In this document: positions 1,402 to 42,885 of the stretch, piece by piece | How the letters are laid out: every line of letters begins with the position of its first letter | Numbering within the stretch: the first letter of the stretch is position 1 | Assembly: GCA_021234155.1 (NCBI GenBank) | Contig: JAJEKV010000051.1 | Span: forward strand, 7,724,761 to 7,788,760 | DNA from: Isoetes taiwanensis | Taxonomy: Eukaryota; Streptophyta; Lycopodiopsida; Isoetales; Isoetaceae | Length of the DNA stretch: 64,000 nt | Reading direction: 5' to 3' | Translations under genes and position numbers: made by a program | Notes under the pieces: model-generated | Told to the model about the DNA's origin: nothing | Databases searched by the model: none | The model's input: only the letters and a program-made list of their open reading frames with translations

Positions 1402-1804
1402 AACTAATAGATTGAATTGAATTGAATGAATGCTTTTTTTATCATCCACGGAGACCAATCGGTCTATGTGACCTATATAAAAGCGCAACAGGCATATCAC
1501 TGCTCGGATTAAAAAACCCAGTCCTAAAGGGTTTTCGAGGGAAAAACCATAGTAGGAACAAGACTGCTAACAAGCTATACAAATATACATATGTACATGA
1601 TCAAGTATTTTCTGCTCATCAAGTGGTTGTCTAGGGGCATATCTGAACCCTCAGATCCATTATCTCCTGAATGTATGCTCCTAGTGATGCTGTATCATGT
1701 GTAGCGGCTCCTCGGGCCTGACCAAGACAGCTAGCATGTCCGGTGATCATATGCCGGGCAGCTCTAGAAAATAAGATGTTCATCCTCAATGGCTCCCATA
1801 ACAA
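1402..1804 (-). mobile_element. LINE family A, 5'-truncated 3' end (copy B)
   Basis: This is a 3' fragment of the non-LTR family also present at 5.29-9.61 kb (+) and 23.69-24.67 kb (-). Shared landmarks are the terminal block with GGTCTCCGTGGA read on the minus strand, the AAAACCC...GGGTTTTT block further in, and the 'catcctcaatgg' stretch near 1,781-1,792. On the minus strand its tail is a run of ATTCA/TTCAA pentamers rather than poly(A). The fragment stops where the transposon terminal repeat starts at 1,807, so the transposon may have inserted into this LINE copy. Confidence 0.7.
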
Positions 1805-1806
1805 GG

Positions 1807-1858
1807 TTGCAAATTAAACGGGAGTGTTGTAGCACTCCCATTTCAAAGATTCCCTTTT
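1807..1858. repeat. Terminal inverted repeat of the left transposon copy
   Basis: Starts TTGCAAATTAAACGGGAG and runs to AAGATTCCCTTTT. It is the inverted counterpart of 21,858-21,909, matching at nearly every position over about 52 bases. It contains an internal hairpin: AAACGGGAGTG, a 6-base loop, then CACTCCCATTT (10 of 11 paired). Similarity to the other ends may extend a few bases outward (ATAACAAG-like), so the exact tip is uncertain. No target-site duplication could be identified. Confidence 0.85.
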
Positions 1859-3708
1859 CAAAACACCATGCTCTAAAAATTGACCCTTTTTGGAAAAAGT
1901 TGAGAATTTCAAAAGGTTCAGATTATTTTTCCTCTCATTTTGAATCCTCATTAAGGTAGAACCTTGTTTTTGTAAAGAAAAACACTTGAAAATGGCAAAA
2001 TTCAGACATGAGTACACAATCTTTGAAAGTAAGATATTGAAAACATCAAAATAAAGTAGAAAGAATAATTTTTTAATTTTTTTTAATACATCAATTTTGA
2101 CAATAATATAGTGTTAACAATAAATATTTTAGCATAAGACAAGTCAGAGGTCCAAATCATATTCTTCCTCATTTTGTTTGCTTGTCTCAGCTTGGTCCTT
2201 CTCCGTCATTTGCTCTTTTTGTGGTGATTTACTCTTGTCTATTTCTACATTTTCTTCAGGAATAGTAGCTAGAGCTACTTCTTTCAGCTTTAAAAAGGTA
2301 GCTTCATCGTCTAGAGAGCTTGTAAATGGAGGCTGTATCTCTGAAGATGTTATCTTGGCATAATCAGATGAAGTTTTGGTGCCAAATTCTTGATTCTCAT
2401 CTGGTAAAGTTGGTAAGGCAACCAATCTCATCTTGATAAAGTTCATAACCTCCTTGTCTATGTCAATGGCTACACAATTGCGGCCCTTCTTAAGTACCCG
2501 CAATTGTTGTACCAGAGCCAGAAAAAACATCAAGCACCCAATCTCCTAGACGTGAGAACACGTCAAGAAGATTGTTGATCAGTTTTTGTGGCTTCTGGTA
2601 ATGATTAACTATCCTGCCTTGTGCACTAGGGTCCTGCAGCTTCTGCAACACTGCTGGAAACTCTACGGCATTTGAAACTTTTTGGCAGGCTGCTGTGTTA
2701 AAATGTTCCATGGTTCGCTTTCCATTGAAACAACATGGAGATATTCCATCTTGCTCAGCAACCTAGGTCCTCCACCATGGTAATTAATATTTGTTTTGTA
2801 CCTACAGAAATAAAAGTAGTACAATTATCAACAAAAACTAAACACAGATCCAATGAGGTAACTATGACTGAATGCACCGTAAATAAGAAGGTCAACATGC
2901 AAACAACTTCAACAACAGAATCAAAACATGAATGAAAGTAAGAAACAACTGTATTCCAGAATAAGAACCTTACCAGACCATGTTTTCGTAACCTGCTGCA
3001 TGTACAGGGGATCCAAAGTGATTCTTGAAGGTGGGTTCCACAAGTCCTGCTTGCATGTTCGAGTGAAACACAACAAGATGCCAATTCTTGGCTGTTGTGA
3101 TCTGTTTAATGCCAGCAATGAATGCATTAAATTCAGAGTTTCTGAAGGGCTGGTCATCGTAGCGGCTGTCCTTTAGTTTGAAGCCATATGGAAGGTCTGC
3201 TATGACCAAAGTGAAATCCTGTGGCTTTACAGATCCAACCAATTTCGTGCAGCCCCCATGAATGATCGAAAACAGGTTGTTTTGATCAAACATACTAAAT
3301 CTCTCGTAGTCGGACGGCTCAGCATCTACAATCTGCCTGTCCGCTAATGACCTCTCCTCCCAGGCTGTCCTTACCAAGTGCATGGAGCCCTTTGGTAGGT
3401 CTTTGTTCTTCTTTTTGCTCTGTAACAAGAAAACGTTACTGCGACAATGTAAAACATGGAAGCTAAAGAGGAAACAGAAGAAGACGACGTTCACAACCAT
3501 CAAAATTTGGAGTGTATTGAATGATGCGTTTGTCAGAAGTGGCAATAGGGTAAAGTTCGTTACATATGTCCCAGGTGTCCACGTTTAATTATTCCATCAG
3601 ACATGTTTGACATGTTATGACATTCTTTTAGCTAAAATACAGCCAAGACAACAAAAAGTAAACCACAAACATCTTGAAAAAAGCAAGAGAAAAGATGCAA
3701 AACTAGCT

Positions 3709-3932
3709 TTGTATTCTGAAATACACATTCGCTATACAAGGGCAGCTAAAGTGTATTCTGGAATACACAATTGTTTTACGTTAAAGCATAAGTGAATTTG
3801 GGAATATACTTTTCGCTTTACACTACAGTAAAAGTGTATTCCAGAATACACTTTTGCTGTAGTGTAAATCAAACGTGTACTACAAAAACACTTTTGCTTT
3901 TCGAAAGAACTAACGTGCATTTCGGAATAACA
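3709..3932. repeat. Phased palindrome array in an intron of the left copy
   Basis: Palindromes of the type GTGTATTCTGGAATACAC are centred near 3,717, 3,759, 3,800, 3,842, 3,883 (degenerate) and 3,923, a spacing of 40-42 bases. They lie in the intron after the MFEQREL exon, the same intron that holds the array at 19.7-20.0 kb in the right copy. Single extra sites lie near 2,957 and 4,262, again matching intron positions of the right copy. Confidence 0.85.
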
Positions 3933-5289
3933 AGTTGTTTACATATTGAAGTTAAGGTCAAACTTACTTGTGTAAACTTCTTGGACATTTCTTCCAACGT
4001 AAAGACCTTTGTCCACAACTTTTGTAGCAGCCTTTCTAGCAACTCCATGTCTGTAGAGCCCTGCATTTCTCTCCAGATGGTTATGGTCATCTCCTTTTTT
4101 GGTACTTCGGAGCCCTTCTTCTTGTCTGATACCTTCCCTTTGCTTTTCAATTCCCTCTGCTCAAACATATTAAAAATTTCGTTCTAGACTTCCCAGATCT
4201 GCACTTGAAAATGGAAAGCTGTTAGTGCGAGACAAGGGTAATTAAATAATAAAACTTATTCCGAAATGCAAGACATCCTTGCTCTGCTGTCTCTAAAAGC
4301 AAGTTGGAACCAATTGTCGTGGCTTATCAGTGGCTGCCTTTTATTAGCCTTGCCGTACTTAAGGCAGCATTCGATAGCATACACCTCCTTTAGCTCGAAA
4401 GAGTTGGCCGGCTTCTTGAGGTCGTCACCGAATCTTTCTTTGAAGATTATATACTCTCTGTGCATAAATCTTATCTTGTCGAGGAAGCTCATTTTAAGTT
4501 TGTACTCGTTGTCAGCATTGTGCATGTTGGTAACGATTTTTTCTTCTTCGTCTGTCAAGCCACAATAAACAGTAGAGAGGACTGAGATGTATCTCGGGTT
4601 ATTCTTTTTCTTGTATAGCTGTCTCCTTGCCTTGAAGCTGTGGTTACCTCATGAAACATAATGCATGTAAGTGTCTGCATTTTCTCTATCATACTACTGC
4701 GTTCTGTCCATAAGGACGACTATAGTAGCTACATAAGCATTGGGGATGCTCCTAATCCTGTCCTTCAGGTTCCTTAAATGGTCAGCATAAATTTTTCGAG
4801 CTTGAAGGGGCCTCCCACCAGCTTCATTCTTTGGTGGCAACCTCATTGATGTTATTGGCAAGTAAATCACACTTTGCACATACTTGTGCAAGTTTATTTC
4901 TTCCATCCTCTCCGAGGTCTTATCCACCTTCTTCTACTTGATGGCCACCCTTGGTGCCTTTCCTTTGCCTTTTTTTCTTTTGGAGCTTTCGTCTGGAATA
5001 TTTTCCACTGCAATTTGCTGCACCTTGTGTTTCTTTGATTCCTTGGCTGCAATGGTGTCTCGTAGCCAGTTCCTCTCTTGCTGCTGTTCTGATCCACTAG
5101 CACTTTGATCTTGTTGCTCTTTCGATCCACTTGAACTAGCAGCTTTGGGCCTTTCTTCTTCTACAATCTTGTTCTCTGATTCGTATGAAAAGTCCTCACT
5201 TAGAGTAGATTGGACCCTTTTTATGATGTCACCGAGCCTCTCTTTATTGACATAGTGTGCCATATACTTGTAGAGGGCTTCTGAGTTCA

Positions 5290-8200
5290 CCCTGCAAGAG
5301 CTGTGCTCCCGACTTCACAGGGCCGAGAACGCGGCTCAGACTGCTACCCCGCCACAGCCTCCACGCCGGCAGCCAGGCCCCTGCACTGCTGCCCCGCACT
5401 CCAGCCACTCCACGCCATCCCAGCCACCACCACCACCCCCCCAGCACGGGACCCGGCCCTCGCCCACCTTTGACCCATGGGCCGCGAAACTCCGGGAGGC
5501 GCCAGCGGAGAGGCCTGTCGGTAGTTCGAGGCATGCGAGAAGCGGCCCGGGGAGAGTCTGCGCCCACAACATCCGAACACACATTCTCGATCGGATGACA
5601 TTCCGGGGCAGTTCACATTTCTCGAGCAGCCCGTCATGGGGCTCGGCCGTCGTGGACCGCATTGTCATATTCACGGTTGCGGATGCAGTGCGTGATGCCA
5701 TATTGCGCCCGGGGCGGATCTTTGAAGGGGACATCCACATGCGTGGACCGACCTCACCTCACACGGCGGCATGAGGCACGCAGCCGAGGGAGCTTGTCGG
5801 GTCGAGGCATTCACCACCGTGGGGTGCCGCGGGATTGGTTCGGCGGGATGCACATTTTTCGGCGGACACCGCCTGCTGCCGACCGCTGGCCCCAACCCCC
5901 AACGGTACCGCGTGGCCACCCTCTGCTTCTCCTACCACGGCCCCCTTCTCACTCTCCCTACTCCTCCCCTCCCGACCCATGCCCTCTCGACCACATCTTT
6001 TGCCTCCGCTCCATCTACTTCTCACTCAGCCTCTGCTTCCCGTCCTCCCCCCGCGACTCAGGCTGCGCATACCATCCCTGCTGACAAATAGGAATTGTGC
6101 CTCCGGGTGGTCTCATGGAATTGTCGAGGCTTCCCTTGGCAGAAGGGGCGGTCCCGAACTCCGTGGGCGGCCGATATGGATCTCATCTTTCTCATGGAGA
6201 CATGGGAGCATCTTTGAGCCACGGGCTACGATCTGCCGGGTTACCAACATTTCTCGGTCTTCAATACACCATGCAGACGGAGGGGGTCATGGTGGAGTGG
6301 CTTGCTACTACCGGACAACCTTGGCACATTCGGTTACCCTCCAGAAGACAGACAGACACAACCGGTACTTGTGGGTTCGTGTGCATAATACCAATGGCAA
6401 CCCTCTTTTTCTGGCCGCCTGTTATTTCCCTCACGCAGAGAGCACCTTCTATCGCAGCCCACCCCGTCGCGGATAGGATGGACCCTTATGTCGATCTATA
6501 TGATGACATACAAAGCTTTCAACCAGCTTGGGTAGGGTCGTCCTTCTTGGAGACTTCAATGCACGGACAGGAGTAGAGCAGCCCATGCGACTTGACCCCC
6601 TCGCTGACGATGTCCTGCAGCTACGCCCCGCAGAAGCAACCTGGCCACGAGGATCGGATGACAGCCAGGTCACTCGCTTTGGCGACAGGTTGCTCTGCTA
6701 TGTGGTATTTTGACTTGATAATTTGCAATGGCACATCCGCGGTGGCCCGATTCTCGCAAGTGCACATGCGATGCAGGACAATCGAGGGGAAGGTCTAGTG
6801 TGGTGGACTATGTGCTCGTGGTTGCGCAAGATATGCATCTCATCGGTCGTTCCGGGTGGGCACAGATAATCGGGATGAGGAGGTCGACTTCGATCACCTC
6901 CCACTTTATTTGGACCTGGTTTGGCAAACCGCCGAACCCCCACTATGCCAGCCCCTCGCCCCTCGTTGAGACTAGATTATGAGCGGCAGAGGACTTCACG
7001 AGATGCTCATGGGCGCCCTCCGTAATTCTCATGGACCTCCACACTAGAGCGGCGTGAGCCGGACCAGTGACTTAGCTATTACGGGATCACGGACGGAGTG
7101 CTTTGGCGAGACCCCCACTGCGTCGCCGCTCCGGGATCAAGAACATTCCCGCGTAACCCGATGGTTTGATGCGAGTGTAAAAACGCATAGCGGCAGCTCC
7201 GTCACATTCGGATCCGTACCGCCTTGCGAGCCACCACACAATACCGCGCCCATCCGGAAGGAGACAAAGGCGGTACCTTCCGCCGAACATCGGGGAGATG
7301 TTCGCCTCGCTGACACTCATCCTCCCGAACCTTTTGGCGCAGAGTGCTTCAAGGCCAGCCCACCCTACGAGGGGACATCACACCCGGGCGGTGGGAACGG
7401 TACTTGCAGCGGCTCTATGACCCGCCAGGGGACGCGTGCGCCCATACCCCCACGGGATGGCCCCCATTGGTTCTCGTGGAGGAGGATGTTGAGGAGGCCC
7501 GCAACGGCCGCTAATGGGAAGGCGGTGACCTCGATGGTATGCGTGCCGAAAGTTACTCAAATGGGCGGGCGGCCGCGCTTGTGCGGTCCTCACTACCCTG
7601 TTCAGCGAGCATTGCGGGAAGGTCTCCCGGGCAATGGACCACAAGCGGGGTTGTTCCCATTCACAAGGTGGGCGACCCACCTTTGTCCGACCAATTCTGG
7701 GACGATCATGGTCGGTTCGATTTGCCAAACCGCTATCGGCATTCTCAAGCAGCAGTTGACCCGACCGGGCGAGGCGGCGGATATGCGAGCCCTCACACAG
7801 GCGGGCTTTAGACCCCGCCACTCAACGATTGACCATATCTTTACAACTGCGGGCACCGATTGAAGACAAACGGAATCATCTGCGGGGACTTGTATTCTTT
7901 GCTTTGTGGACTTCACGAAGGCTTTTGATACATTCCCCTGAAAAAGGCGTGGGCTAGGCTCGTCAGCTGGGGCTCCCGTACCGTGCGAGAATGCCATATA
8001 CACGGTTGTATGAGAGTTGTTTTGGCGGGATGCGGCCGGCGGGCCAAGCATTCACCAAGAGTATCGGGTCCCAAGCAGGGTTGCCCCCCCTCTCGCCAAC
8101 GCTTTTGGCCTCTACATTGATCGGGTTAGAGCCCCGGCTTCTGAGCATGGGGATGGCATACAGCGACTTTGCACCGGTCATCCGCCCGACTCATCTATCT

Positions 8201-9612
8201 CGAACGATGTTGGCCTGCTGGCCCACACCCCGAAGCTATGCGGTCTCACCGATGCCCTAGACACATTTTGTCGCTGATTTATGCGGCGTGAATCTAGCCA
8301 AGACCGGGTGGTTCTCATATCCTCTTCACGTCACCCCATGCATCCCCGTGACTCACATATCGGGGGCGACTGTGGAAGTCACGCCCACCTACAAGTACCT
8401 AGGGGTGGAGTTCCCCTCCTCGCTCTCTTGGGGAGGCGTCTATCCGCTTCGGGGTGACAACAGTGAAGAAAAGCGCTTTATGCCATGCGAGAACAACAAT
8501 CACCGTGCAGAGCTCTATGATTGGGGCCATCGGTCACATCTGTTCTGCCCTTACAGACGGGTCGAGGTTTGGGGCCCTGGCCGCCTCTTTGGCGACATGG
8601 AATGACTTGGAGCAGGTGTGCGAAGGCATTTTTGGCACGGCACTTGGGGTGAAACCTTCAGCCCCCTATCGATTCTCGCTGCGGAAATGGATTCTTGCCC
8701 GGTTCACGGGCAGCCCTTGATAGACACATCATCTATTTTCGAAAAGTGGTGGGTGATGCTCTGGCCCCACACCGCTTACACGTGGCAATGAGTCCGCAGC
8801 GGCTTAGGGCCCGTTGGAGGGTAAGAGAGATCGGTGGTTCGCCCGGATGGAACGTCGCGGGGAGCACGATGCATGCAGTGGACCAAATGCCGATCGTCGT
8901 GGACGGCCTCACGGGGAGTACCTAGGCGCTTGTTTCCTTGGCAAGCTCGGGGACCCCCGCTTTAGAGCAGGTCAAAACGCGACCCATTATAAGGAGCACA
9001 TCAACCCGTGTTAGCCCTGGGGCCCACAGCTCTACCTGCGTTCCCAAATGCCCACAAAAGCGGACTCATTGCCTCCATTCGCGAGTGCCCACCATCTTCG
9101 CATTGAGGCAGGCGGTGGATTGGGGAGCCCCCGCCAGACAGTGCTCTGTCGATCTTTGTCAAAGCGGGTGCCATTGAGGATGAGTCTCACACTTTCGAGT
9201 TGCCTAGCGTTGGTCGATCCGGGCGGATCACGCTCCCTTAGTCGGCGGACTTGCCCTTACATTTGCCGATGAACACACCGCCGATGCGTGCCACGGGGTC
9301 GTTACATTCGGGAGAGGTAATTGGACACCGCAAGGTCACCTTTGCCCCCGCCGCTCGGTGATTAGGCACTACGGTCTTGAGGGGCATGACTGTATATATT
9401 TGGGTGTTTACGCATTTTATATGTTAGGGACGGTTTGTCGGCCAGTGATTGTCGCCACGGTTTTTTTCCTCGAAAACCCTTCTGGTGGGGGGTTTTTAAT
9501 CCGGCAAGTCAATCCGCTTGTTGCTGCGTTTTTGTATTGGGTCCCATAGACCGATTGGTCTCCTTGGACGATAAAAGTATCTTCCTTCCTTCCTTCCTTC
9601 CTTCCTTCCTAG
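5290..9612 (+). mobile_element. LINE family A, near full-length degraded copy
   Basis: A GC-rich non-LTR retrotransposon, unlike the AT-rich DNA around it. Reading across frameshifts on the plus strand shows an AP-type endonuclease (VVSWNCRGFPW near 6,105, METW near 6,205, LGDFNART near 6,545). A reverse transcriptase follows (AGFRPRHSTIDHIF near 7,800, FVDFTKAFD near 7,905, a YADD-like SNDVGLLA near 8,200). A C-terminal Cys-His motif with AIEDESH lies near 9,170. Many stops and frameshifts make it non-functional. It ends in a CTTC microsatellite and is inserted in the left methyltransferase copy, breaking that gene at about 5,289/9,836. A GC-rich 5' leader occupies about 5,290-6,090. No clear target-site duplication was found. 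Confidence 0.85.
9581..9610 (+). repeat. CTTC microsatellite tail of the LINE
   Basis: About 7 units of CTTC directly follow the conserved LINE 3' block (GGTCTCCTTGGACGATAAAAG). Here the short tandem repeat takes the place of a poly(A) tail. The two other copies of the family end in different pentamer repeats. Confidence 0.85.
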
Positions 9613-9835
9613 CCAGTCTAAAAAATGCCTGCTCCACAACCAGGCCTCCAGATTAGATTTTGATTAAACCGGCAAAATGCCGCGCTTTGTTGCTACTTAT
9701 CGGATTTTTCAAAAAATATCCTCTAATTTTCCGGATTTAACAAGCATTTTACAAAATTTTAACCAGAAATTTTCCGACATCTGTTAAAGAAACCGGATTT
9801 TAACAACTTCAACCAGAAATTCTGGGGAGGAACCC
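9611..9835. other. Short insert between the LINE tail and the methyltransferase fragment
   Basis: About 225 bases that belong neither to the LINE nor to the methyltransferase gene. The edges carry an imperfect inverted repeat (CCTCCAGATT near 9,646-9,655 and AATCTGGAG near 9,839-9,847), and the inside repeats words such as CCGGATTTTAAC. It could be a small TIR element next to, or carried with, the LINE. Support is weak. Confidence 0.35.
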
Positions 9836-10232
9836 CCCAAATCTGGAGCCCTGTGGACCACAACTATAAACCCCTGGGACGGTTTGAAGGAGAGCCGTCC
9901 CTGTTGTCCAGACTGACTGGCAACCTCAGAAACTTCTTTTATAGTACCCATGCACTTAAACTCCCTATCATACCTTTTCTGTCCAGGACTTCCTAGACGT
10001 GCAAGAAAGTAAGGGTGCTGTTCTTTCCCGTCGTGCCCCTCGTTTTGGACCATTGCTTTTGAAAGTTTTTATAAATTGCTGGCTCAAATATGTCGTGGAC
10101 CTTTGCCTGTGGATGAGGCTTCTTGACAATCTTGAGTGTTCTTTTAGGAGCTCTTTTACTTCCTTCTTGCCTGTGGAAGAACAATTGTTAAAAGTAATAA
10201 AAGAAGATAAAACTGACACTAAAACATGCTAG

Positions 10233-13200: not shown

Positions 13201-13649
13201 AAGGATTTTTGAGAAGTTCCAATTGGTTTTCAACCATCATTGATTTATTTTGGAAATAATGATATTATGGATCACACTAATGATCAAAACCTTTTAACTT
13301 CCAAAACCATGTAACCGAACTTCTTCAGATAAATACAAGGACTTTCAATCTATAAACCATCTATATATGTAAAGAAACCACAAATTACACTATTAACAAA
13401 AGTATCGAATATCTAATTACAATGTAATAAGCAAACAACACAGATTACATTAATAATCTGTGTTCTTATCTAGTTCACAAAAACCAGCTTATGTGATAGA
13501 AGTTACACCAATAAGTTCTAGTAATCAGGCTCCAATTCACTAAAACCAGAAAATGATTCAACTCTTTGATCAGTTCGCTGCCCAACTGGGTCAATCGGTG
13601 TTAGGAATTGGCGGATTATGCAAGGCGACTGGCAATAGAATAAACAAAG
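10233..13649. other. AT-rich non-coding region with short tandem duplications
   Basis: No protein family was recognised. Local tandem duplications are visible: a roughly 66-base unit at 10,800-10,940; a 50-base unit at 11,010-11,110 (repeating GCTCGAACCTAAGTTT); a roughly 61-base unit at 11,355-11,470 (repeating GCATGCTTCAATTG); and a roughly 100-base unit at 12,235-12,430. This region separates the truncated left transposon copy from the fuller right copy. Confidence 0.6.
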
Positions 13650-13717
13650 TTGCGTATTAAACGGGAGCAAATCATTGAAACGAGAGCAAAAGGAATATTC
13701 CTCAAAGATTCCTTTTT
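13650..13717. repeat. Left terminal inverted repeat of the 8.26-kb transposon
   Basis: TTGCGTATTAAACGGGAG followed by a diverged middle and CAAAGATTCC. Same orientation as 1,807-1,858 and inverse of 21,858-21,909. The internal hairpin seen at the other two ends is lost here, and an AGGAATATTCCT palindrome sits in its place. Confidence 0.75.
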
Positions 13718-14049
13718 TTTTTTACAGAAAGGGGATAAAACGAGGTTAAAAAAAAAAGATGCATGAAATTCTATTTTGACCCCCCCAAATGACTATTTTT
13801 TTTTTTTTTGCAACGAAAGAATTGACTTTTTTAAAGTGTCACTTTTTTTAGCAAATAGAATGTTCTTAAAGTATGTTTTAAGAGAGAAACTCTAATTTCA
13901 GAGGATAAAATATTTAACAAAAAATTGAAGTAAGTCCAGAATCGAAATCGTAGTATTCTCAAAATTTGAAGATAGAATCTTCATATTCACATGCAAAATT
14001 TCTGATCTTTTTCTAAGACTTCGGTTATGTGCAAAAGTGTGAGGAGTGA

Positions 14050-17000
14050 TGAGAGAGGGATCCAGGGGCGTCATCATATTCATTTATGCCATCGTCATCA
14101 CCTTCACTTCTTTCATCATCACTTTCGAGGAAGTGCTTGAGTTATCTTCCTCATCACTTTGTCATCAACAGACGGTGAAGCATTGCCACCACCTTCTTCA
14201 TCATCTTCTTCATAATTACAAGCTTTTTTTAAGCAAATTGATAGTCCTCTCCATGAGATGATTGTCGATTTCAATTTAAAATCATAGCACAATATAGTCA
14301 CGTCATTAAGGTTCATTTCGTCCCTACAACCCACCTTCTTGGATTTTCTCCCTTTTCCTTGGCTTCTCATTTCTAACTCATATCTACCTTCAAAAGCATT
14401 TTCTCGAAAGGTGTTGCAAGTTAATGAATCTTGAGTTTAGTGACTAAGCCTTCCTCCTTGACTGTGTCAAGCACTTTTGCTATCCGAATCGGCCGACCTT
14501 TGTCATCCTCCTCGGTCGGAAGAGCAATTAGCATACCTTTGGTAATTTACGTGATATTACCTTGAGGCTCATTCTGCGTCTTGGTCCGAGATACATGACT
14601 CGATCCTCCCTCGTCTTCTCTCATCAAGGTGAAAATGTAGCCTTTGCTTGGACCTTGCTTTGGTTGGGGTTGATGGAAGGTGTCGCCATTGAAATGGTTC
14701 TTGCAACTGTCTTAGAGCTATATTTTGTACAACAATTTTCTGTTCGAGAAAGAAATTACTCCACTACATCCGATCTTCTTCTAAGAAGTACTTAAAGCCT
14801 GAGGAAATTCCATTTTCAATGGCTTTTAAGGATGACTCTGGGGTACTTTTCTTCTGCTTGGACTCCTTAGGATTTTTGAGAGGAAGTTGCTCAGCACGTT
14901 CTATGAAGGAAGTGTCTGGAATATATTTAAGGAAGCGTAATCCCTCTGGTGGACTCCAGTCTTTAGTTGTGGTATACTTCTTCCCCTGTAAGAAGCTTTG
15001 GCCATCCTTCAAGTAGAACTTGATGTGATGTTGAAAGGTGAGATCATTCAACTTGTTCACAGCTTGTTCTCTGTTTGAACGTTGAGAGAAAACAAACTCT
15101 CTGAAATCAGCAGTCTCTTTAAGAAGACCAACCACTGGAGTAGGAGTGTAAGAATCTTCAATAATTCGAACTAAAGCAGGAAGACAGAAAGCCTTCTTCC
15201 TTCTAAGGCGCACAAAAAATCTGCTGAACATTGATCATGAGTGTGGCCTACAAGTAAGAAACCGAACTTCACTTTTCTAAAGATCCCTAGCTCCACTAAC
15301 ATGGCACAGTACACAAAGAGTGTTTGATTCTTGTTCTCCCTTGTAGTATTGTCAAGTTGCAGATAAAGCACTGGTGGTAATTGCTCTTGCTCGCACAGGA
15401 CCTTGTTAAGAATTGTAATTGTGAGGTTCGGGTCACCATGCAAGTTTGGATACGTCAAAAATACTTTGCACTTTAGACTTCCTTCGAAGACCATAGCTCC
15501 TACAAGGTGGACCTTAACAAAACATTCCTCTGGCACATCTTTAGGAATGTTCAAGAAATGTGGTAGAGTTGTTTTGTTTTTTGTCCATTCCATCAATCAC
15601 AACAGACATGTATTGCAGTGGACGTTCAAGAGCTTTTTTTCTGTGCTTGGCAAGCTTTCTTCTCTCTGCTGCTTGTTGTTCACGATGTCTGGCAAGGTTT
15701 TGTTGCACAATATCTGTAGAAGAAATCAGGTCAAAGCATTTTCTTTAAAACAAGTGAGAGATTGGAGAACATGAGCTTACTTCTTTCGACCTCTGTCTTT
15801 GTAGTTTCTCGTTGACTCTTTAATTCTGCACACCTTGAGCAAACTGACATTCTATGTTTTCTAGGAATTTTCACAAGACCGAATTCACTTTTCCACAGTC
15901 TGGTGAAGTGTGAGTAAGAGATGTGCTGAAGCTGAGTGCAAGTCTCTTTGTACTCATTAAAAACATCTTTTTTTGTGATGTTATCAGTTAAATGATACAT
16001 GTTGCTGTTAGGTAGCTTCTCACATGTTTCTTTAAAATATTTCTCCATCCATGACACAGCAGCAAGGGCATGCATGGTTACAACTCTTCTCGGTCCACAA
16101 TGATCATCGATTGCTGGATTTTTGTCCAGTCTTTTATGTATTCTAGACATTCTGGTGGACCCTAAACGGTGGACAACCATAAAGCATTTCTGGCAAACTT
16201 CTTCACGGTTAATGTAGTGCAAGAAGGTGTTGCGGTCTGGTCTTACATGATAAGCTAAGTAGGCATTCAGTGCCGCCAATGTCATGGAACTGTAGTTGTC
16301 TCTAACTGCTCGTAATTTAGCCATGTTAAATCTGTTGATGCAACCCAATGAGTAGCATTTAGTTCTCAAAAGTCTCCTCATTTTGTGTTCATCCATAAGA
16401 TTTCTTCTTCTTACAGAGGAGCACGCCCTCAAACCAGAATCCACCTTGAATTTCTTTGAAGATTGGCTGGAGAACATATAATCTCTTTGTTCCTCGTTGG
16501 TGTCTTCATCTTCTGATGAAACTTCTACTCTGGGGGTGACTTCCTCTGTCCCCGAAAGTGGTGTGTTTGTAGAGGAAAAACAGGACCACGTGAAGTTGTT
16601 CCCTAAAAGGCGGGGTACAAATGTTAAAGGATGGTGATGGCCCATAAGAGGTTGTGGCATCAGCTGTTCTTGTACCATCTTGAAAAGGAGTTCTTGCAAA
16701 CATCTCCTTTAGAGCGGACTGGAATTCTGCAAATCCATGTGTCACAACCGTTGTGTGAAGAGGAGTGCATGCTGGAGCGTCGTCCTCATTTGTAGTGAAG
16801 TCATGGTGAGAGAAATTGTAGTGAATCTCACAGTCTTCTTTACTTTCTGTGTTCCTTGTATGTTTGAGTGAAGGGGGCGAAGCTACAAATGGGGGTAGCT
16901 TGTTCTTGAACACCCGTTGTTGTGGAGCTTCTGTAGGTGGTCCAGGGGATGGAACAAAGGGTGGTGGCAACATGCTCCGAACTGGTGGTGATGCTTTGGA

Positions 17001-17221
17001 AGGAGATGCCAGTGTACTGTCTACAGGACTTGGTGACGGTTGGAAGGGTGGTGGAATGGACTCGGTGTGTCTTCGAGAAGCAACAATGATGAAGTAGAGG
17101 TAGGAGTCGGAGAATGCCGGTCTTCAGTAGAAATGACGTTGTTCCCAAGCGTGTCCTTAGAACTAGAAGAGCTTGAGACAACAAAAGGTGGTGGAAGCTT
17201 GTTCACGAAACGGTTCGTCAT
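14050..17221 (-). pseudogene. DDE-type transposase-like gene (DUF7869-like), frameshifted
   Basis: The minus-strand protein begins near 17,221 (MTNRFVNKLPPPFV) with a Pro/Ser-rich stretch that repeats PPPFV-type motifs. A conserved region follows at 15,783-16,550 (REEVCQKCFMVVHRLG, CSRCAELKS). A roughly 60-base intron lies at 15,722-15,782 (GTAAGC donor, CTACAG acceptor). The catalytic-looking region follows: VVIDGMD near 15,590, LQLDNTTRENKNQ near 15,350 and VGHTHD near 15,240. A basic segment and an acidic tail (SDDERSEGDDDG) end near 14,050. This D / DN-ENKN / HTHD layout is what I recall for DUF7869-type proteins of non-seed plants, algae and animals. Two lesions break it: a shift in the A6 run (15,577-15,582 on +) and a small deletion right after VGHTHD (about 15,229-15,235). 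The transposase role is inferred from the motifs and the position inside terminal repeats. Confidence 0.7.
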
Positions 17222-17282
17222 CTTAACAACTACAAAATAGTAAAGAGATTTGAGAAACTTTCTGTAGTGCAGAGCTTTTCTT

Positions 17283-17762
17283 ATTCCCGAATACACGCCC
17301 ACGTAGTACAAGTAGAAGTTCCAATACTAATCAAGTGAAAGTCAAAATAAACGCTATTCTGGAATACACAGGAGTAGGATAGTAAAGCTAAACGTATTCC
17401 GCTTCACATAGAAAAAGAGCAAGACGAAAATGATACCTTTAAAAGGAAATTCCGGCGCCTTCAGTTGCGTATTCCAGTCTCTGAGCTCAAGTCGCCAGCG
17501 CCAGCGTCTTCGATTAAAATATTCAGAGATCAGATTCGATCCACATAGAGAAAATGGGCGGACAGAGTAAGAAAGTACAACGTACAATCATTTGTGTGTC
17601 TGTTTCTTATTCCCGAATACACTATCGCCTTCGAGTGAAAGCGAAAGTGTATTCCGGAATACACTTTCGCCTTCACTCGAAGGAGAAAGTGTATTCCGGA
17701 CACTTTCGCCTTCGAGAGAAGGCGAAGGTGTATTACGGAATACACTTTCGCCTTCGGAATAC
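17283..17762. promoter_or_regulatory. Intergenic palindrome array between the two transposon genes
   Basis: Palindromes with core ATTCCGGAAT are centred near 17,287, 17,360, 17,400 (half site), 17,613, 17,655, 17,697 and 17,736; the last four are spaced 42, 42 and 39 bases. One site (17,641-17,670) is a perfect 30-base palindrome whose arms start GCGAAAGTGTATTCC. The DNA between sites also folds: CACTTTCGCCTTC, GAGA, then its near complement. The array lies in the shared 5' region of the divergent genes, or in a 5' intron of the methyltransferase gene. It could be a promoter/operator for both genes or a protein-loading site. Confidence 0.8.
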
Positions 17763-19375
17763 ACCTTCGTGTTTTTAGGTTTTAAAAGGTTATTTTTCCA
17801 TGAGTTTTTTAGTAATTTTAGGCGTTTTTCCTGCCTTTAGAACTTGTTTAGACCTGTTTCTTTGTCAAGATTGCAGTGCTGTTTTGGCATTTTTCTCCTT
17901 TTTTTGCCCTCTTTTTTCCCTTTGCAAGATATTTTGTATTCTGGAATAGTTTTTTGCCACTGTTTTCTCCAACAAGGTCGTGTTTACACACAATTTGCAC
18001 AGACAAGAAGGCAGCAAGAAACAACAGAAGAGGCCCCTTAAAATCCCACAGAAACCGCACCCACAGAGAAGGGTTGAGGAGACAGCTGCGCCTGCTATCT
18101 ACGAAAACTTCCAAACTCAATGGTTTTTTACAAGGGGTACTTCTGGAAAGTACAGCACCCTTACTTTCCTATATGTCTGTCGGAGCCCTGGAAATAAAAG
18201 ATACGATGACAGGGAATTTGTCTGCATGCACCATCCAGGCCGTGAGTGAAGTAGCTGGGGAGTCCGGTCAGCAAGGGAGACTGTCTTTTCAGACATCCCA
18301 AGGCTTTATTCATGTTGATGAAGCCTATCTTAGAGTGGTAAAAGTAAATCCTCAGCCTCTTTATAAGTATGTTTCTCACTACCTCAACAAGAGGTCTCTC
18401 TGTGCCATCATTAACTACATTCGAAGCACAACGAGCGAAGACTTCCCCTACAGCGAGTCATCACAAGGGGAAGAGGATAACCTACAGAGCCCGAGCAGTG
18501 CATCATCACAATCTGGGAGTCCATCACAGTCCGAAGAAAAGCCGCCGTCACCACCACCAAAGAAGCGGCAAAGGCCAACCATTGCTGCTAAAGAGCCTAA
18601 AAAGCAAACGGCTTTAATTGCAACAGAAGATGCTCCTGAGGAACCTAAGAAGAAGAAGGGGAAGGGCAAAGCACCTGGTGTTGCTATTAAAGAAAAAAAA
18701 GTTGATAAAACATATGAGAAAATGGAAGAGATTAACCTGCACAAATTTGTGCAAGGTGTCATTTATTTGCCAGTCACTTCAATGAAGCTTCCACCGAAAA
18801 ATGAAGCTGGTGAAAGGCCACTTCAGGTTCGCAAAATTTATGCCGATCACTTGAGGAACCTGAAAGACAGAATAAGGAGCAATCCAAATGCTCATGTGGC
18901 CCCAATAGTTGTCCTTGTTGACAAGGAGCAGTGCAAAACCCCCCAGGACTATGATAGAGAAAACGCAGATACCTACACTCACTATGTCTTGGGAGGAAAT
19001 CACAGCTTCAAGGCAAGAAGGCAACTTTATAAAGAGAAGAAGAACCCGAGGTACCTCTCCGTCCTCTGCGCTGTTTACTGTGATCTTACCGATGAAGAAG
19101 CAAAAATCGTTGCCAACACCCACAATGCTGACAACGAGTACAAACTAAAGATGAGCTTCGTCGACAAGATCCGGTTTATGCACAGGGAGTACGTAATTTT
19201 TAAGGAAAAGTACGGTGAGGACCTGAAGAAGCCAGCGTTTTCCTTGGAGCTTAAGGAGGCGTGTGCCATTGAATGCTGCCTGAAATATGACGAGGCCAAT
19301 AAAAGGCAGTCTCTCATTGGCCACGATAACTGGTTCCAATTAGCTTTTAGAGATGGCAAGGTAAGCACAAAACGT

Positions 19376-19385
19376 ATTCCAGAAT
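19376..19385. promoter_or_regulatory. Single palindrome just inside intron 1 of the methyltransferase gene
   Basis: ATTCCAGAAT lies 15 bases after the exon 1 donor. The left copy carries a similar site (ATTCCGAAAT near 4,262) at the equivalent intron position, although the surrounding intron sequence has diverged. Confidence 0.7.
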
Positions 19386-19705
19386 AACAATCCAACTATC
19401 TGACGTGAAATCTTCTTGAACAAATTTGGGAACTCCAGGACGAGATATTTACAATGTTCGAACGAGGGGAGTTAAAGAGCAAGGGCAAGGAGACAGCCAA
19501 GAAAAAATCATCTGGCGTGCCCAAAAAAGAAATGACCATTACCGTCTGGCGAGAAATGCAAGGCTTCTCCGACACAGAGCTTCTGGAGCAACTTCTCCAA
19601 AAAGTTGTTGATAAGGAGTTTAGCCTAGAAGAAATGTCAAAGGAATTGCACAAGTAAGATCTCTGACACAAACTTTACTCTTTAGATGTTAGAGTCCCAA
19701 AAACA

Positions 19706-20020
19706 TCGGCGTAGATATTCCAGAATACACATGCCTTCCTTCACATGGGCAATGTGTATTCCGGAATACACATTGCTTGTCTCTAGAAAAGCATTGTGTA
19801 TTCCGGAATACACATTGCTCCTCTGAAGAAAGGCATGTGTATTCTGGAATACACATGCCTTCTTCTAGAAAAGAATTGTGTATTTCAGAATACATATTGC
19901 TCCTCTGAAGGAAGGCATGTGTATTCTGGAATACGCATTCCTTCCTTCAGAGAAGCAATGTATATTCCGGAATACACAATGCTTTTCTAGAGACAAGCAA
20001 TGTGTGTATCCTGTAACAGA
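19706..20020. repeat. Seven-unit palindrome array, 41-42 bp period, in intron 2
   Basis: Palindrome centres are at 19,720.5, 19,762.5, 19,804.5, 19,845.5, 19,886.5, 19,927.5 and 19,968.5, with a decayed eighth near 20,010 and an isolated site at 20,076.5. The core is GTGTATTCYRGAATACAC. The unit at 19,749-19,776 is a perfect 28-base palindrome. Arms differ between units (GCAAT or GGCAT on the left) but usually match on both sides of the same unit. Spacers hold secondary dyads such as TTCTAGAA. Confidence 0.9.
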
Positions 20021-20773
20021 ACTATTTTCTGCATATTGTTTCGAGGTAGCATCACCAGTTAACCAGTTTGTATTCCAGAATACAAATAGCTTGACTTTTA
20101 TTTGTTTTCCTTCTACTTTGCCTTGTTTCTTACTTTTTAACTCATTGTTTCCTTAATGTCTACGTCGAGACATGGGAAAGGTGCAAGGAACTCTACCCAT
20201 TAGCCACTTCAGACGAGCGCATTGTGCAATATGCACCAAATTTTGAGGGCTGGGTAAGTACTCTCAAAATTCCTCGTCTTTGCACAAACGATCTCCTTAC
20301 AGTTGTTATGTTTTTCCTCAGAGCAAAATGAAAAACAAAGACCTTCCTGAGGGCTTTATGCATTTGGTTAGAACAGCACGGGAAGAGAGGTCGTTAGCTG
20401 AAAGAAGAACTGTTGAGCCAGAACCATCCGACTACGAGAGATTTTGCATGTTTGATCAAAACAATTTATATTCAAGCATTCATGGTGATTGCACGAACCT
20501 TGTCGAAACGGTTAAGCCACAGGACTTTACTTTGGTTATTGCTGATCTTCCCTACGGGTTTAAGCCTAAAGACAGCAGATACGATGACCAGCCCTTCAAA
20601 TTTTCAGAGTTTAATGCTTTCATTGATGGAATCAAGCAGATCACAACGGCCAAACATTGGCGTTTAGTTACGTTCCATTCGAGCATGCAGTCTGGCTTGG
20701 TAGAATCAGCTTTCAAAAACCATTTTGGTTCTCCAGTTCAGGCAGGATATGAAAACCTTGTCTGGTAAGTCTT

Positions 20774-20824
20774 ATTCCAGAATACAGTAACTTTTCTCTT
20801 CGATTACGTAGTGTATTCCGGAAT
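20774..20824. repeat. Palindrome pair, 41 bp apart, in intron 4
   Basis: ATTCCAGAAT centred at 20,778.5 and ATTCCGGAAT centred at 20,819.5, exactly 41 bases apart. They lie just after the exon 4 donor. The left copy keeps one site near 2,957 in the same intron. Confidence 0.8.
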
Positions 20825-21857
20825 AGTATTTCCTGTTTCTGGTTTTCGAATTGTTTACTTGTTTTTGCTAACATCACTTTAAATGTTTCACTAGGTACAA
20901 AACGAACATCAACTACCATGGTGGAGGACCAAGGTTGCTCAGCAAGGTAGAGTACCTTCATGTAGCTTATTAGAGTCTTGATGGGAAGAGGACCATGGAA
21001 CACTTCAACACTGCCGCCTGTCAAAACTTTTCAAACGTCCTAGAGTTTCCAGCAGTCTTACAGAAATTGCAGGACCCAAGTGCACAAGGCAGGATTGTGA
21101 ATCACTACCAGAAACCACAAAAGCTCATCAACCATCTCCTGGACATGTTCTCGCGTCCAGGAGATTGGGTGCTTGATGCTTTCTCTGGTTCTGGTACTAC
21201 TATCGCATGTGCACTTAAGAAGGGCCGCAACTGTGTTGCCGTGGATATTGATAAGGATGCTGTGCATTTTGTGAAGATGAGACTGGCTGCCTTACCTACT
21301 TTACCAGATGAAAATCAAGAGAGAGGGGCCAAGTCTTCATCTGATTATGCTAAACTAACGTCCTCAGAGATACAGCCTCCATTCTCGAGCTCACTAGACG
21401 ACGAGGCAACCTTTGCAGAGCTTAAAGAAGTAGCTTTAGCTACCATTCCAGAGGACAAGGAGGATACAAAACTTAAGTCTCTAGCAAAGGAGCAGACGGC
21501 ACAGAAGGACGAGACGGCAGAGAACAACAAAAAGAATGATGAGGACTATGATGTAGATCTTTGACTACTGCATATTAAAACTATCATTATTTATTACAAT
21601 GAATCTTCCATAATGATGTACAAAAATTTATTAAAAACATAATACTTTTTTTTCCTTTCTATTCTGGTGCTTTTTTTTTGTCATGCTTTCAGTCTCTTCA
21701 AGTCTATGCCTAAATTTCGCTATTTTTATGATTTCTGTTTCATAAGTACAAAGTTATTGCCTAATGATGGCCCAGAATGACATGAAAAAAAATGCGAACC
21801 TCTATAAATTCTCAACAACTATAAAAAAAGGCTTATTTTAGAAACATGATGTTTTTT

Positions 21858-21909
21858 AAAAGGGAATCTTTGAAACGGGAGTGATGCAACACTCCCGTTT
21901 AATTTGCAA
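21858..21909. repeat. Right terminal inverted repeat with 11-bp hairpin
   Basis: Reverse complement of the 1,807-1,858 end. It contains a perfect hairpin at 21,873-21,900: AAACGGGAGTG, loop ATGCAA, CACTCCCGTTT. The element ends at TTTGCAA or a few bases beyond. Confidence 0.85.
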
Positions 21910-23689
21910 TCGTGTTAATAACTTCACAAGCAGAATAGCAAGATCTTCTTATCTGTACAAGACGTAATTTCCAAGTCCCTTTAGAATAGCAGGAAATTGT
22001 TGGGCATTCAAGTGATAGTAATCGGCTCTGCAATCTGCCAAGTCTTGCAGTAGAAAGTTCGATTTGAAACAATCATAGCTTCTCATCCAAAAATGGCCAT
22101 CCATGTATTACTGTAGCACCCCGTCCCCTTTTAATAGCAAATCGCCCTCTTCTCTTAATTATCCGCTCTCTTTTGCCTTAGATCAGTTCTATTCTAGCCT
22201 TTTAAGCATAAGAATATTATGAATTAAGAAATAATATTAAACCTTAACTATTATAAGGTTTTCTTTTGCCATTCAATTGCCTTGCCTTGCCAATTATTTG
22301 CGAAAACTAAACATCCATGCTAGTCCACCAAGACTAACATCCAAGATCGCACCCTCAAACTACTATATTCATATCAAACGATATGCAATATACTATAAAA
22401 GATAAGTGGCTCCACGATTAAATCATATCTATGGATTATACAGGAATGAATAGAAAAAGTATGGAAGAAAAAGCAATGTATTTGTATTTGACTTGGACAT
22501 TTGAATAAAAAGACGTGTTTGTGTGTGACTTGCCTACTGAAAAAAAAAAAAAAAAAATATTTCCTTGCTATCCTGATTGGTGCCTATATGTGTCAGGTGT
22601 TGCAAACTGCTTGCTTGCATGGGGCAATTCAACTATTTGAATAAATGCTTGAAATATATATTATTTTTTGGAATTGAGATTATTGTGAATATGCTCAAAG
22701 AGGATAGAGAAAATACATGTATGTAGTATAGTGACATGAAATACCATGTTCACACTTATGGGCAACAAATGTAGTTGAATGAAGTTTTAGACAAATGCTT
22801 CAAAGGAATATGGTTTTTTGAAATGCCATGCTTTAAACCCCAGCGATTCAACTTTATATAGTGGTGCTATATGTCATCTGTGTTCCTTGAAATTGGATAG
22901 AACACTCCTTATAAAGATGCCTACTAAGAAAAATCCTCCTTATACAGTTCCATATTTCCTCAAATTCTATACGCCTACCTTCGCTTTACCCCCAACTTTG
23001 TTAATTATGCTACCTTATAGCACTTATTGCCTCAAACTTCATGTCCTTATATATCTCTTCCCTTAAATTTACAAATTTAAAACAAATAACCTTACGTATA
23101 TGTACGACAATACATAGTACAAAAAAAAACCACCCAAGCACTCATGTTTTTTTTTAAGGTTCAATGGTATAAATCCCCCTTGGCTTTTAGTTTATATTTA
23201 ACATGGGAAGATGAAAGAAGCTCTGAAATTATTTGAGAAAAATGCAAAACAAGAATGTTATTGTATGGATTGTCATTTAAACTAAAGTCGATGATGGATT
23301 TTCGGGCTCATCCACAAGACAAACAACAATTAGGAGAACCAGTCCATTCATTGCATCTTATTGTAGCCAAGAAGTGGTAGGAGACTTTTTTACATCCTCT
23401 ATGGCAACCATTTGCAAGATTTTATGAGTCTATATATTGGGTTGGAGAGCTTCCATATTGATCGTTGTATTATTTGAAACATGATGTGTGTTTTATGTTT
23501 TTGAGCTATAAAATAGCTATATTTTTTCATGCCACCTTTAATAGGTAGACATATGTTTCTTATGATTCTCTCAAGGATTAACTATGCTATGCAAGCCTCA
23601 TCATATGTATTTGCTTGCCACCTCCTTAAGCTTGAGGAAGGCATTTTAAACAAGAGTTGGAAACTTTTGAAGCAATAGACTATTTATTT
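21910..23689. other. AT-rich region without recognised genes
   Basis: Flanks the right end of the transposon. It contains homopolymer runs (A18 near 22,541) and no coding similarity that I can recognise on either strand. Confidence 0.5.
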
Positions 23690-42578: not shown

Positions 42579-42650
<72 letters not shown>

Positions 42651-42667
42651 CATCTATCCATTCATTC

Positions 42668-42749
<82 letters not shown>

Positions 42750-42885
42750 TTTTCTATCTATCTATCAAAAAAAGGGACTTAGAAATTGGGCTTACTTTTA
42801 TATGCCAAAGCCCTAGTTGATTACATTGATCCATATCCATCAATAATAGAAGATTAGACCAATCCATAATAGCCACACAATGGAT
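42190..42885. repeat. Duplicated segment (about 430 bp apart) carrying an ATCT microsatellite
   Basis: The sequence from CACTATATTTTGCCTCTAGA to CCATCAATAATAGAAGATTA is present at 42,200-42,440 and again at 42,530-42,880. The second copy holds the ATCT array where the first has ordinary sequence ending in ATCTATCC. Confidence 0.8.
42580..42766. repeat. ATCT microsatellite, about 187 bp
   Basis: About 45 ATCT units, interrupted once near 42,650-42,668 and again near 42,749. The long YLSI-repeat reading frames over it are an artefact of the tetranucleotide. Confidence 0.97.

Follow-up and report, generated by a model that had tools for sequence, protein, structure and literature searches.

The stretch of Isoetes taiwanensis DNA analysed here (64,000 nucleotides, called the window; contig JAJEKV010000051.1, positions 7,724,761 to 7,788,760) carries a gene that joins a ParB-like half to a DNA methyltransferase half, divergent from a transposase-like gene. 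The locus raises two questions: whether both genes belong to one mobile element, and what such a methyltransferase would do for it. We find that the genes lie within a complete terminal inverted repeat (TIR) DNA transposon of 8,274 bp (13643..21916, unstranded), identified by its TIRs, a target-site duplication (TSD) of AATA and matching TSDs in other copies. The TIRs are imperfect and begin with AACA. The left repeat, AACAAAGTTGCGTATTAAACGGGAG, occupies 13643..13667 on the plus strand, and the right repeat, AACACGATTGCAAATTAAACGGGAG (reverse complement), occupies 21892..21916 on the minus strand; the AATA duplications flank them at 13639..13642 and 21917..21920. A first-pass annotation of the bare sequence had proposed a TIR transposon enclosing two divergent genes. 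That proposal held, and the ends it gave, 13650 and 21909, fell a few bases inside the computed ones. The TIRs match at 22 of 28 bases, compared with at most 20 in 15 shuffles of the flanks, which by itself is modest evidence for the borders. A subterminal palindrome, GGAATATTCC, lies near the left end (13692..13701); it is identical in the related loci L013, L015 and L020, described below, and has one change in L019. Inside the right end, a palindrome with 14-bp arms (21873-21900) could form a terminal hairpin.

The status of the element as a transposon is settled because other genomic copies show the same ends and matching TSDs. The genome (1,658,258,908 bases, 1.66 Gb, in 1110 contigs) was searched with the ParB-methyltransferase stretch, and the best 40 of 2073 first-look candidates were scored. 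This gave 119 matching pieces, and at least 11 genomic places, the window's own included, span the whole query at 86–100% identity. We compared 13 stretches with their flanks: the window, nine of the ten other whole-query places and three partial places. The right end is present in all 13 and both ends in eight, so that the search for copies with the same terminal repeats, suggested with the first-pass annotation, succeeded and the two genes share terminal repeats in copies. The left end was not recognised in five of the stretches (L029, L033, L037, L039 and L040). Copy borders were set from the TIR motif and not picked to fit a TSD; the 4-bp TSDs agree in all eight copies with both ends (AATA, TTCA, TCAA, TGAA, CAAA, CCAC, TATC and CTCG). 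A chance TIR, or two unrelated genes that happen to be neighbours, was ruled out by the copies, the TSDs and the gene linkage in related loci. The anatomy and past mobility of the element are near certain. A second copy in the window (1800..5290, end approximate, minus strand) is truncated and decayed: it retains the ParB-methyltransferase gene, four palindromes and the right TIR, which terminates it at 1800, and its transposase half was not found within the window.

The ParB-like half and the amino-methyltransferase half are encoded by five plus-strand exons: exon 1 (18173..19360, start codon uncertain), exon 2 (19439..19653), exon 3 (20181..20253), exon 4 (20322..20764) and exon 5 (20895..21564). 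In the 12 other copies, splice donors are GT at all 42 readable sites and acceptors AG at all 44, out of 48 of each in principle, the remainder falling at edges that fail to align. Exon 5 matches N6_N4_Mtase (PF01555) with an E value of 3.8e-17 and 63.4 bits, against a curated cut-off of 26.7, and the related locus L015 scores 58.3 bits. DLPYG at 20544 in exon 4 precedes FSGSGTT at 21181 in exon 5; we take these to be motifs IV and I, in the order of the beta class to which the first-pass annotation had assigned the enzyme. The evidence for a predicted N6_N4 amino-methyltransferase domain is strong, and its DxPYG motif presumably indicates N6-adenine as the target. The methyltransferase gene is broken in the window copy, where an in-frame TAG (20971-20973) replaces a tryptophan of L034. 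In exon 1, eight of the 12 other copies have a 2-base gap relative to the window copy.

The ParB-like domain (18758..19231, plus strand, in exon 1) is far more remote from its relatives. It carries the motif YVLGGNHS at 18983 (GGNHS within 18983-19006). The window sequence matched TIGR03764, a ParB family of plasmids and integrative and conjugative elements, with an E value of 1.1e-4 and 21.9 bits, far under the curated cut-off of 143.75; the relatives P0001 and P0002 did not match it. Pfam scans of the window protein gave no match to PF02195, so that of the Pfam families proposed for checking, N6_N4_Mtase and DUF7869 were found and the ParB one was not. Eight of nine weak plasmid matches of the ParB half (E 0.8 to 7) carry a ParB annotation. 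When the half was aligned by hhalign to four plasmid ParB templates, the score was 23.2 against a maximum of 10.2 for 149 column-shuffled decoys; with a larger family alignment, it was 17.9 against 12.7 for 100 decoys. The templates were picked from the weak matches, omitting the hypothetical protein L009 from five records, and the tests are therefore partly dependent. A PDB profile search with the ParB half gave no matches, and its AlphaFold model (pLDDT confidence score 38) was too poor for use. The GGN motif and the helices that follow it are collinear with TIGR03764, from which the window protein differs in being remote, eukaryotic, split by introns and fused to a methyltransferase. Taken together, the N-terminal domain is ParB-like and probably a remote homologue of ParB, as had been proposed from the motifs upstream of the methyltransferase. 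Three long phage methylases (L002, L003 and L005) showed no ParB domain. A conserved region preceding the ParB-like domain (L013:4305-6041, N-terminal part) shows beta strands in a low-confidence model and is possibly a Tudor-like module.

The transposase gene occupies 14024..17221 on the minus strand, with an intron at 15714-15780 and an uncertain N-terminal part (16652-17221). Its DUF7869 domain (Pfam PF25273; 14971..15530, minus strand) is matched with an E value of 2.8e-33 and 115.5 bits against a cut-off of 26. In the window copy the gene is broken: the frame is interrupted, and the segment that in P0004 bears the third putative catalytic aspartate is absent. P0004 is a relative 84% identical to the window transposase over 58% of the query. 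For the relative P0006, a model was derived from a 42-sequence alignment. It aligns to the cores of retroviral integrases and Mos1 in 44 of the 50 Foldseek matches listed (one being Argonaute), and its residues 691-808 align to the BAH domains of EBS, SHL, DNMT1 and MTA1 in six of the 50; none had an E value of 0.001 or better. Across the 42 sequences, three putative catalytic acids of P0006, namely D336, D417 and D459, are either invariant or conserved in at least 90%, and they lie near the expected strands and helix. The DUF7869 protein is thus a predicted transposase with an RNase H/integrase fold, in line with the DDE-type neighbour suggested by the first-pass annotation, and the model suggests that DUF7869 transposases carry a BAH domain, a module that reads histones, at their C terminus. 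The KDZ transposase family was not among the families listed in Pfam scans of the transposase. Elements of the Sola superfamily make 4-bp TSDs, the same length as in all eight copies with both ends.

Relatives of the ParB-methyltransferase are few: three proteins among 5.8 billion, one of them from the fern Adiantum nelumboides, and a further profile search added no member. Of the 74 relatives of the transposase, many come from the liverwort Riccia sorocarpa, one is named as Adiantum and a few are from animals. Scanned against prokaryote genomes, the ParB half matched eight loci (L013–L020), all on contigs of one metagenome-assembled genome titled uncultured Trichormus (CAKZGI01, GTDB). Because Trichormus is the cyanobiont of Azolla, the GC content of these contigs is 0.37–0.41 and L015, the locus read through, has introns, the contigs with transposons are probably Azolla fern DNA in the bin. 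The CAKZGI01 bin itself appears contaminated with host DNA. With relatives in A. nelumboides, on the Trichormus contigs and in R. sorocarpa, a plant origin of the element is likely on indirect evidence. A viral source was rejected: pattern scans of viral contigs found no relatives of either protein, and the ParB half was unmatched in phages.

The related loci repeat the arrangement of the window element. The DUF7869 gene stands head to head with the ParB-methyltransferase gene in five of the eight; in L016, L017 and L018, the ParB match is preceded by 90, 322 and 615 bp of contig, respectively. The two genes are thus linked in all five testable related loci and in the window family. TIRs starting with AACA, as in the window, are paired in L015, L019 and L020; the TSDs match in L015 (TGTT) and mismatch in L019 and L020. 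The open reading frames of the ParB half (562–594 amino acids) are intact in six of the eight loci, L019 having lost the first half of the gene, and those of the transposase (873–898 amino acids) in four of five. In L015, the locus whose methyltransferase exons were examined, these exons are open, and DIPYG and FSGTG-GTT are conserved. The ratio of nonsynonymous to synonymous substitution rates (dN/dS) is 0.07–0.12 in all six transposase pairs, and 0.07 and 0.08 in the two unsaturated pairs of 15 for the ParB half. Both the transposase and the ParB half are under purifying selection in the related copies.

What the ParB-like half might bind is suggested by arrays of palindromes, all unstranded. 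Array A (TGTATTCCGGAATACA and variants) fills the space between the divergent genes (17280..17950). Array B lies in intron 2 of the ParB-methyltransferase gene (19714..20084) with a period of mostly 41–42 bp, and two further palindromes lie in intron 4 (20771..20827). With up to three mismatches allowed, TGTATTCCGGAATACA is found at 20 sites in the window, 16 of them in this copy, four in the second copy and none elsewhere, compared with 0.27 in shuffles. The 13 stretches hold 191 such sites, 11 to 18 per stretch; a count can take in part of an adjacent copy, as for L037. Spacings of no more than 130 bp number 121, and 86 of these measure 41 or 42 bp. At the centre of the palindrome, 95 sites have CG, 77 have CA or TG, 18 have CC and one has GG, a distribution that fits the expectation if CpG decays. 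The related loci have 44 palindromes in the same intergenic place, with the core GTCGATGC-N3-GCATCGAC (L014 15, L013 10, L018 8, degenerate, L015 5, and L017 and L020 3 each). Spacing there is 50–52 bp in L013 and mostly so in L014, 50 and 31 bp in L015, and mostly 40–43 bp in L017, L018 and L020. Arrays are present in all six testable related loci (L016 and L019 fall outside this set) and in the window family. Overall, the spacing is mostly 40–54 bp, and the core sequence varies by host group while the layout is maintained. The sopC site of the F plasmid, next to a ParB gene, is built of tandem units of about 43 bp that each contain an inverted repeat. The arrays resemble sopC and other ParB–parS systems in their spacing and in lying beside a ParB-like gene, a likeness read from sequence; no role in partition is known for the transposon.

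We lean, by a narrow margin, towards a model in which the accessory methylase recognises its own element, probably through the palindrome array, and methylates it. In this model, the plant transposon with its two genes moves by cut and paste. The DUF7869 transposase would act on the AACA-beginning ends with its three-acid RNase H-type core, making a 4-bp staggered cut, and its C-terminal BAH domain may read host chromatin. The ParB-like domain would guide the methyltransferase to the array beside its promoter, as ParB is guided to parS or sopC-like arrays, and the methyltransferase would then methylate the element DNA. Such methylation may keep the element active by opposing silencing, or may time transposition after replication. 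Marking of the element, coupling to replication and escape from silencing had been put forward in the first-pass annotation, and these roles are still conjectural. The model builds on the linkage of the genes, on genes that are open and show purifying selection in related copies, and on the arrays themselves. A bolder version, which we hold tentatively and consider doubtful, makes the element a plasmid-partition-site analogue in a land plant: its own ParB-like adenine methyltransferase would nucleate on the internal parS/sopC-like array and lay down N6-methyladenine, giving the element an epigenetic identity independent of host cytosine methylation, and the specificities of protein and array would change together between host lineages.

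Self-recognition through the array has to be weighed against other uses of the palindromes. The transposase or a host factor may bind them, their sole role being control of the divergent promoter, while the methyltransferase acts on the element without them. The position of array A between the two promoters fits this, as does the resemblance of its half-site, GGAATA, to the subterminal palindrome; however, the array core of the related loci departs from the end motif, GGAATATTCC being kept subterminally in L013, L015 and L020, and palindromes of the window family are found in introns as well. We regard this explanation as rather unlikely. Still less probable, in our estimate, is that the arrays are hairpin-forming repeats that give double-stranded RNA or cruciforms, as silencing triggers or structural DNA, with the ParB-like protein uninvolved. 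Intron 2 contains inverted arms of 117 nt that are 87% complementary, and the arms of array B can pair as a long inverted repeat. The outer palindrome arms vary yet stay self-complementary beyond shuffles (5.91 in the related loci, where shuffles reach at most 5.32, and 5.00 in the window, where they reach 4.90), a result weakened by the fact that duplication of whole units also yields paired arms. Within the window family, moreover, the intron 2 palindrome cores are no better conserved than the rest of the intron (10 of 13 copies aligned; L031, L036 and L040 were dropped as their flanking anchors did not fit), which counts against protein recognition of the array and for the hairpins. Against hairpins, the recurring core and the spacing near whole helical turns suggest protein binding.

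The ParB-methyltransferase gene might also be a passenger, captured or inserted within the element and with no part in transposition. All 13 copies examined for this scored as damaged in at least one gene of the pair; the check was a rough one, based on alignment gaps, and exaggerates the damage where exons have diverged. The linkage to the transposase in every testable related locus and the window family, the purifying selection on the ParB half, like that on the transposase, and the many genomic places that cover the whole query speak against it, and we consider it very improbable.

The first-pass annotation had suggested that this kind of element was undescribed. Here it was mistaken: ParB-methyltransferase transposons are already known from algae, as PMC12477816 describes. 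The Ectocarpus transposon Sola1-1_Ec32 encodes a 1104-residue ParB-like/N4C-or-N6A methyltransferase, green and red algal cases are cited, and such proteins are proposed to bind and modify their own transposon (PMC12477816), the role proposed here for the window protein. Both elements have the ParB-like and amino-methyltransferase parts in one protein, on the strand opposite the transposase. They differ in size (about 8 kb in the window, 21.5 kb for Sola1-1_Ec32) and in host, a land plant with a DUF7869 transposase bearing a putative BAH domain against a brown alga; the comparison is one of architecture, by which the window element likely belongs to the algal kind. Palindromes are unmentioned in the main text of PMC12477816, and the arrays, which lie between the genes and, in the family of the window copy, also within introns, are new here. 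In the open-licence literature, we found no earlier account of the land-plant occurrence, the DUF7869–BAH transposase or the palindrome arrays, and no paper on DUF7869. According to PMC12730594, Kyakuja, Zisupton and other fungal DNA transposons carry TET/JBP enzymes; these are likewise DNA-modifying, but are dioxygenases rather than methyltransferases and travel with other transposases. The N4CMT of bdelloid rotifers (PMC8885841) resembles the window enzyme in being a eukaryotic, intron-bearing N6_N4 methyltransferase of bacterial type, but it is a host gene that aids transposon silencing, whereas the window methyltransferase is transposon-borne. The present element extends the ParB-methyltransferase accessory from algae to land plants and places a DUF7869 family as a transposase with a putative chromatin-reading domain. 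Its candidate binding sites make the idea of self-binding, self-methylating transposons directly testable, and the element is relevant to the debate about adenine methylation in plants.

Elsewhere in the window, a GC-rich stretch (4000-10000; 0.51–0.58 in 2-kb windows, about 0.36–0.38 on either side) lies next to the point where the second copy breaks off. Within it, an open reading frame (7048-7863) resembles a reverse-transcriptase fragment by eye, perhaps from a retroelement insertion. A long ATCT microsatellite lies at 42579-42766.

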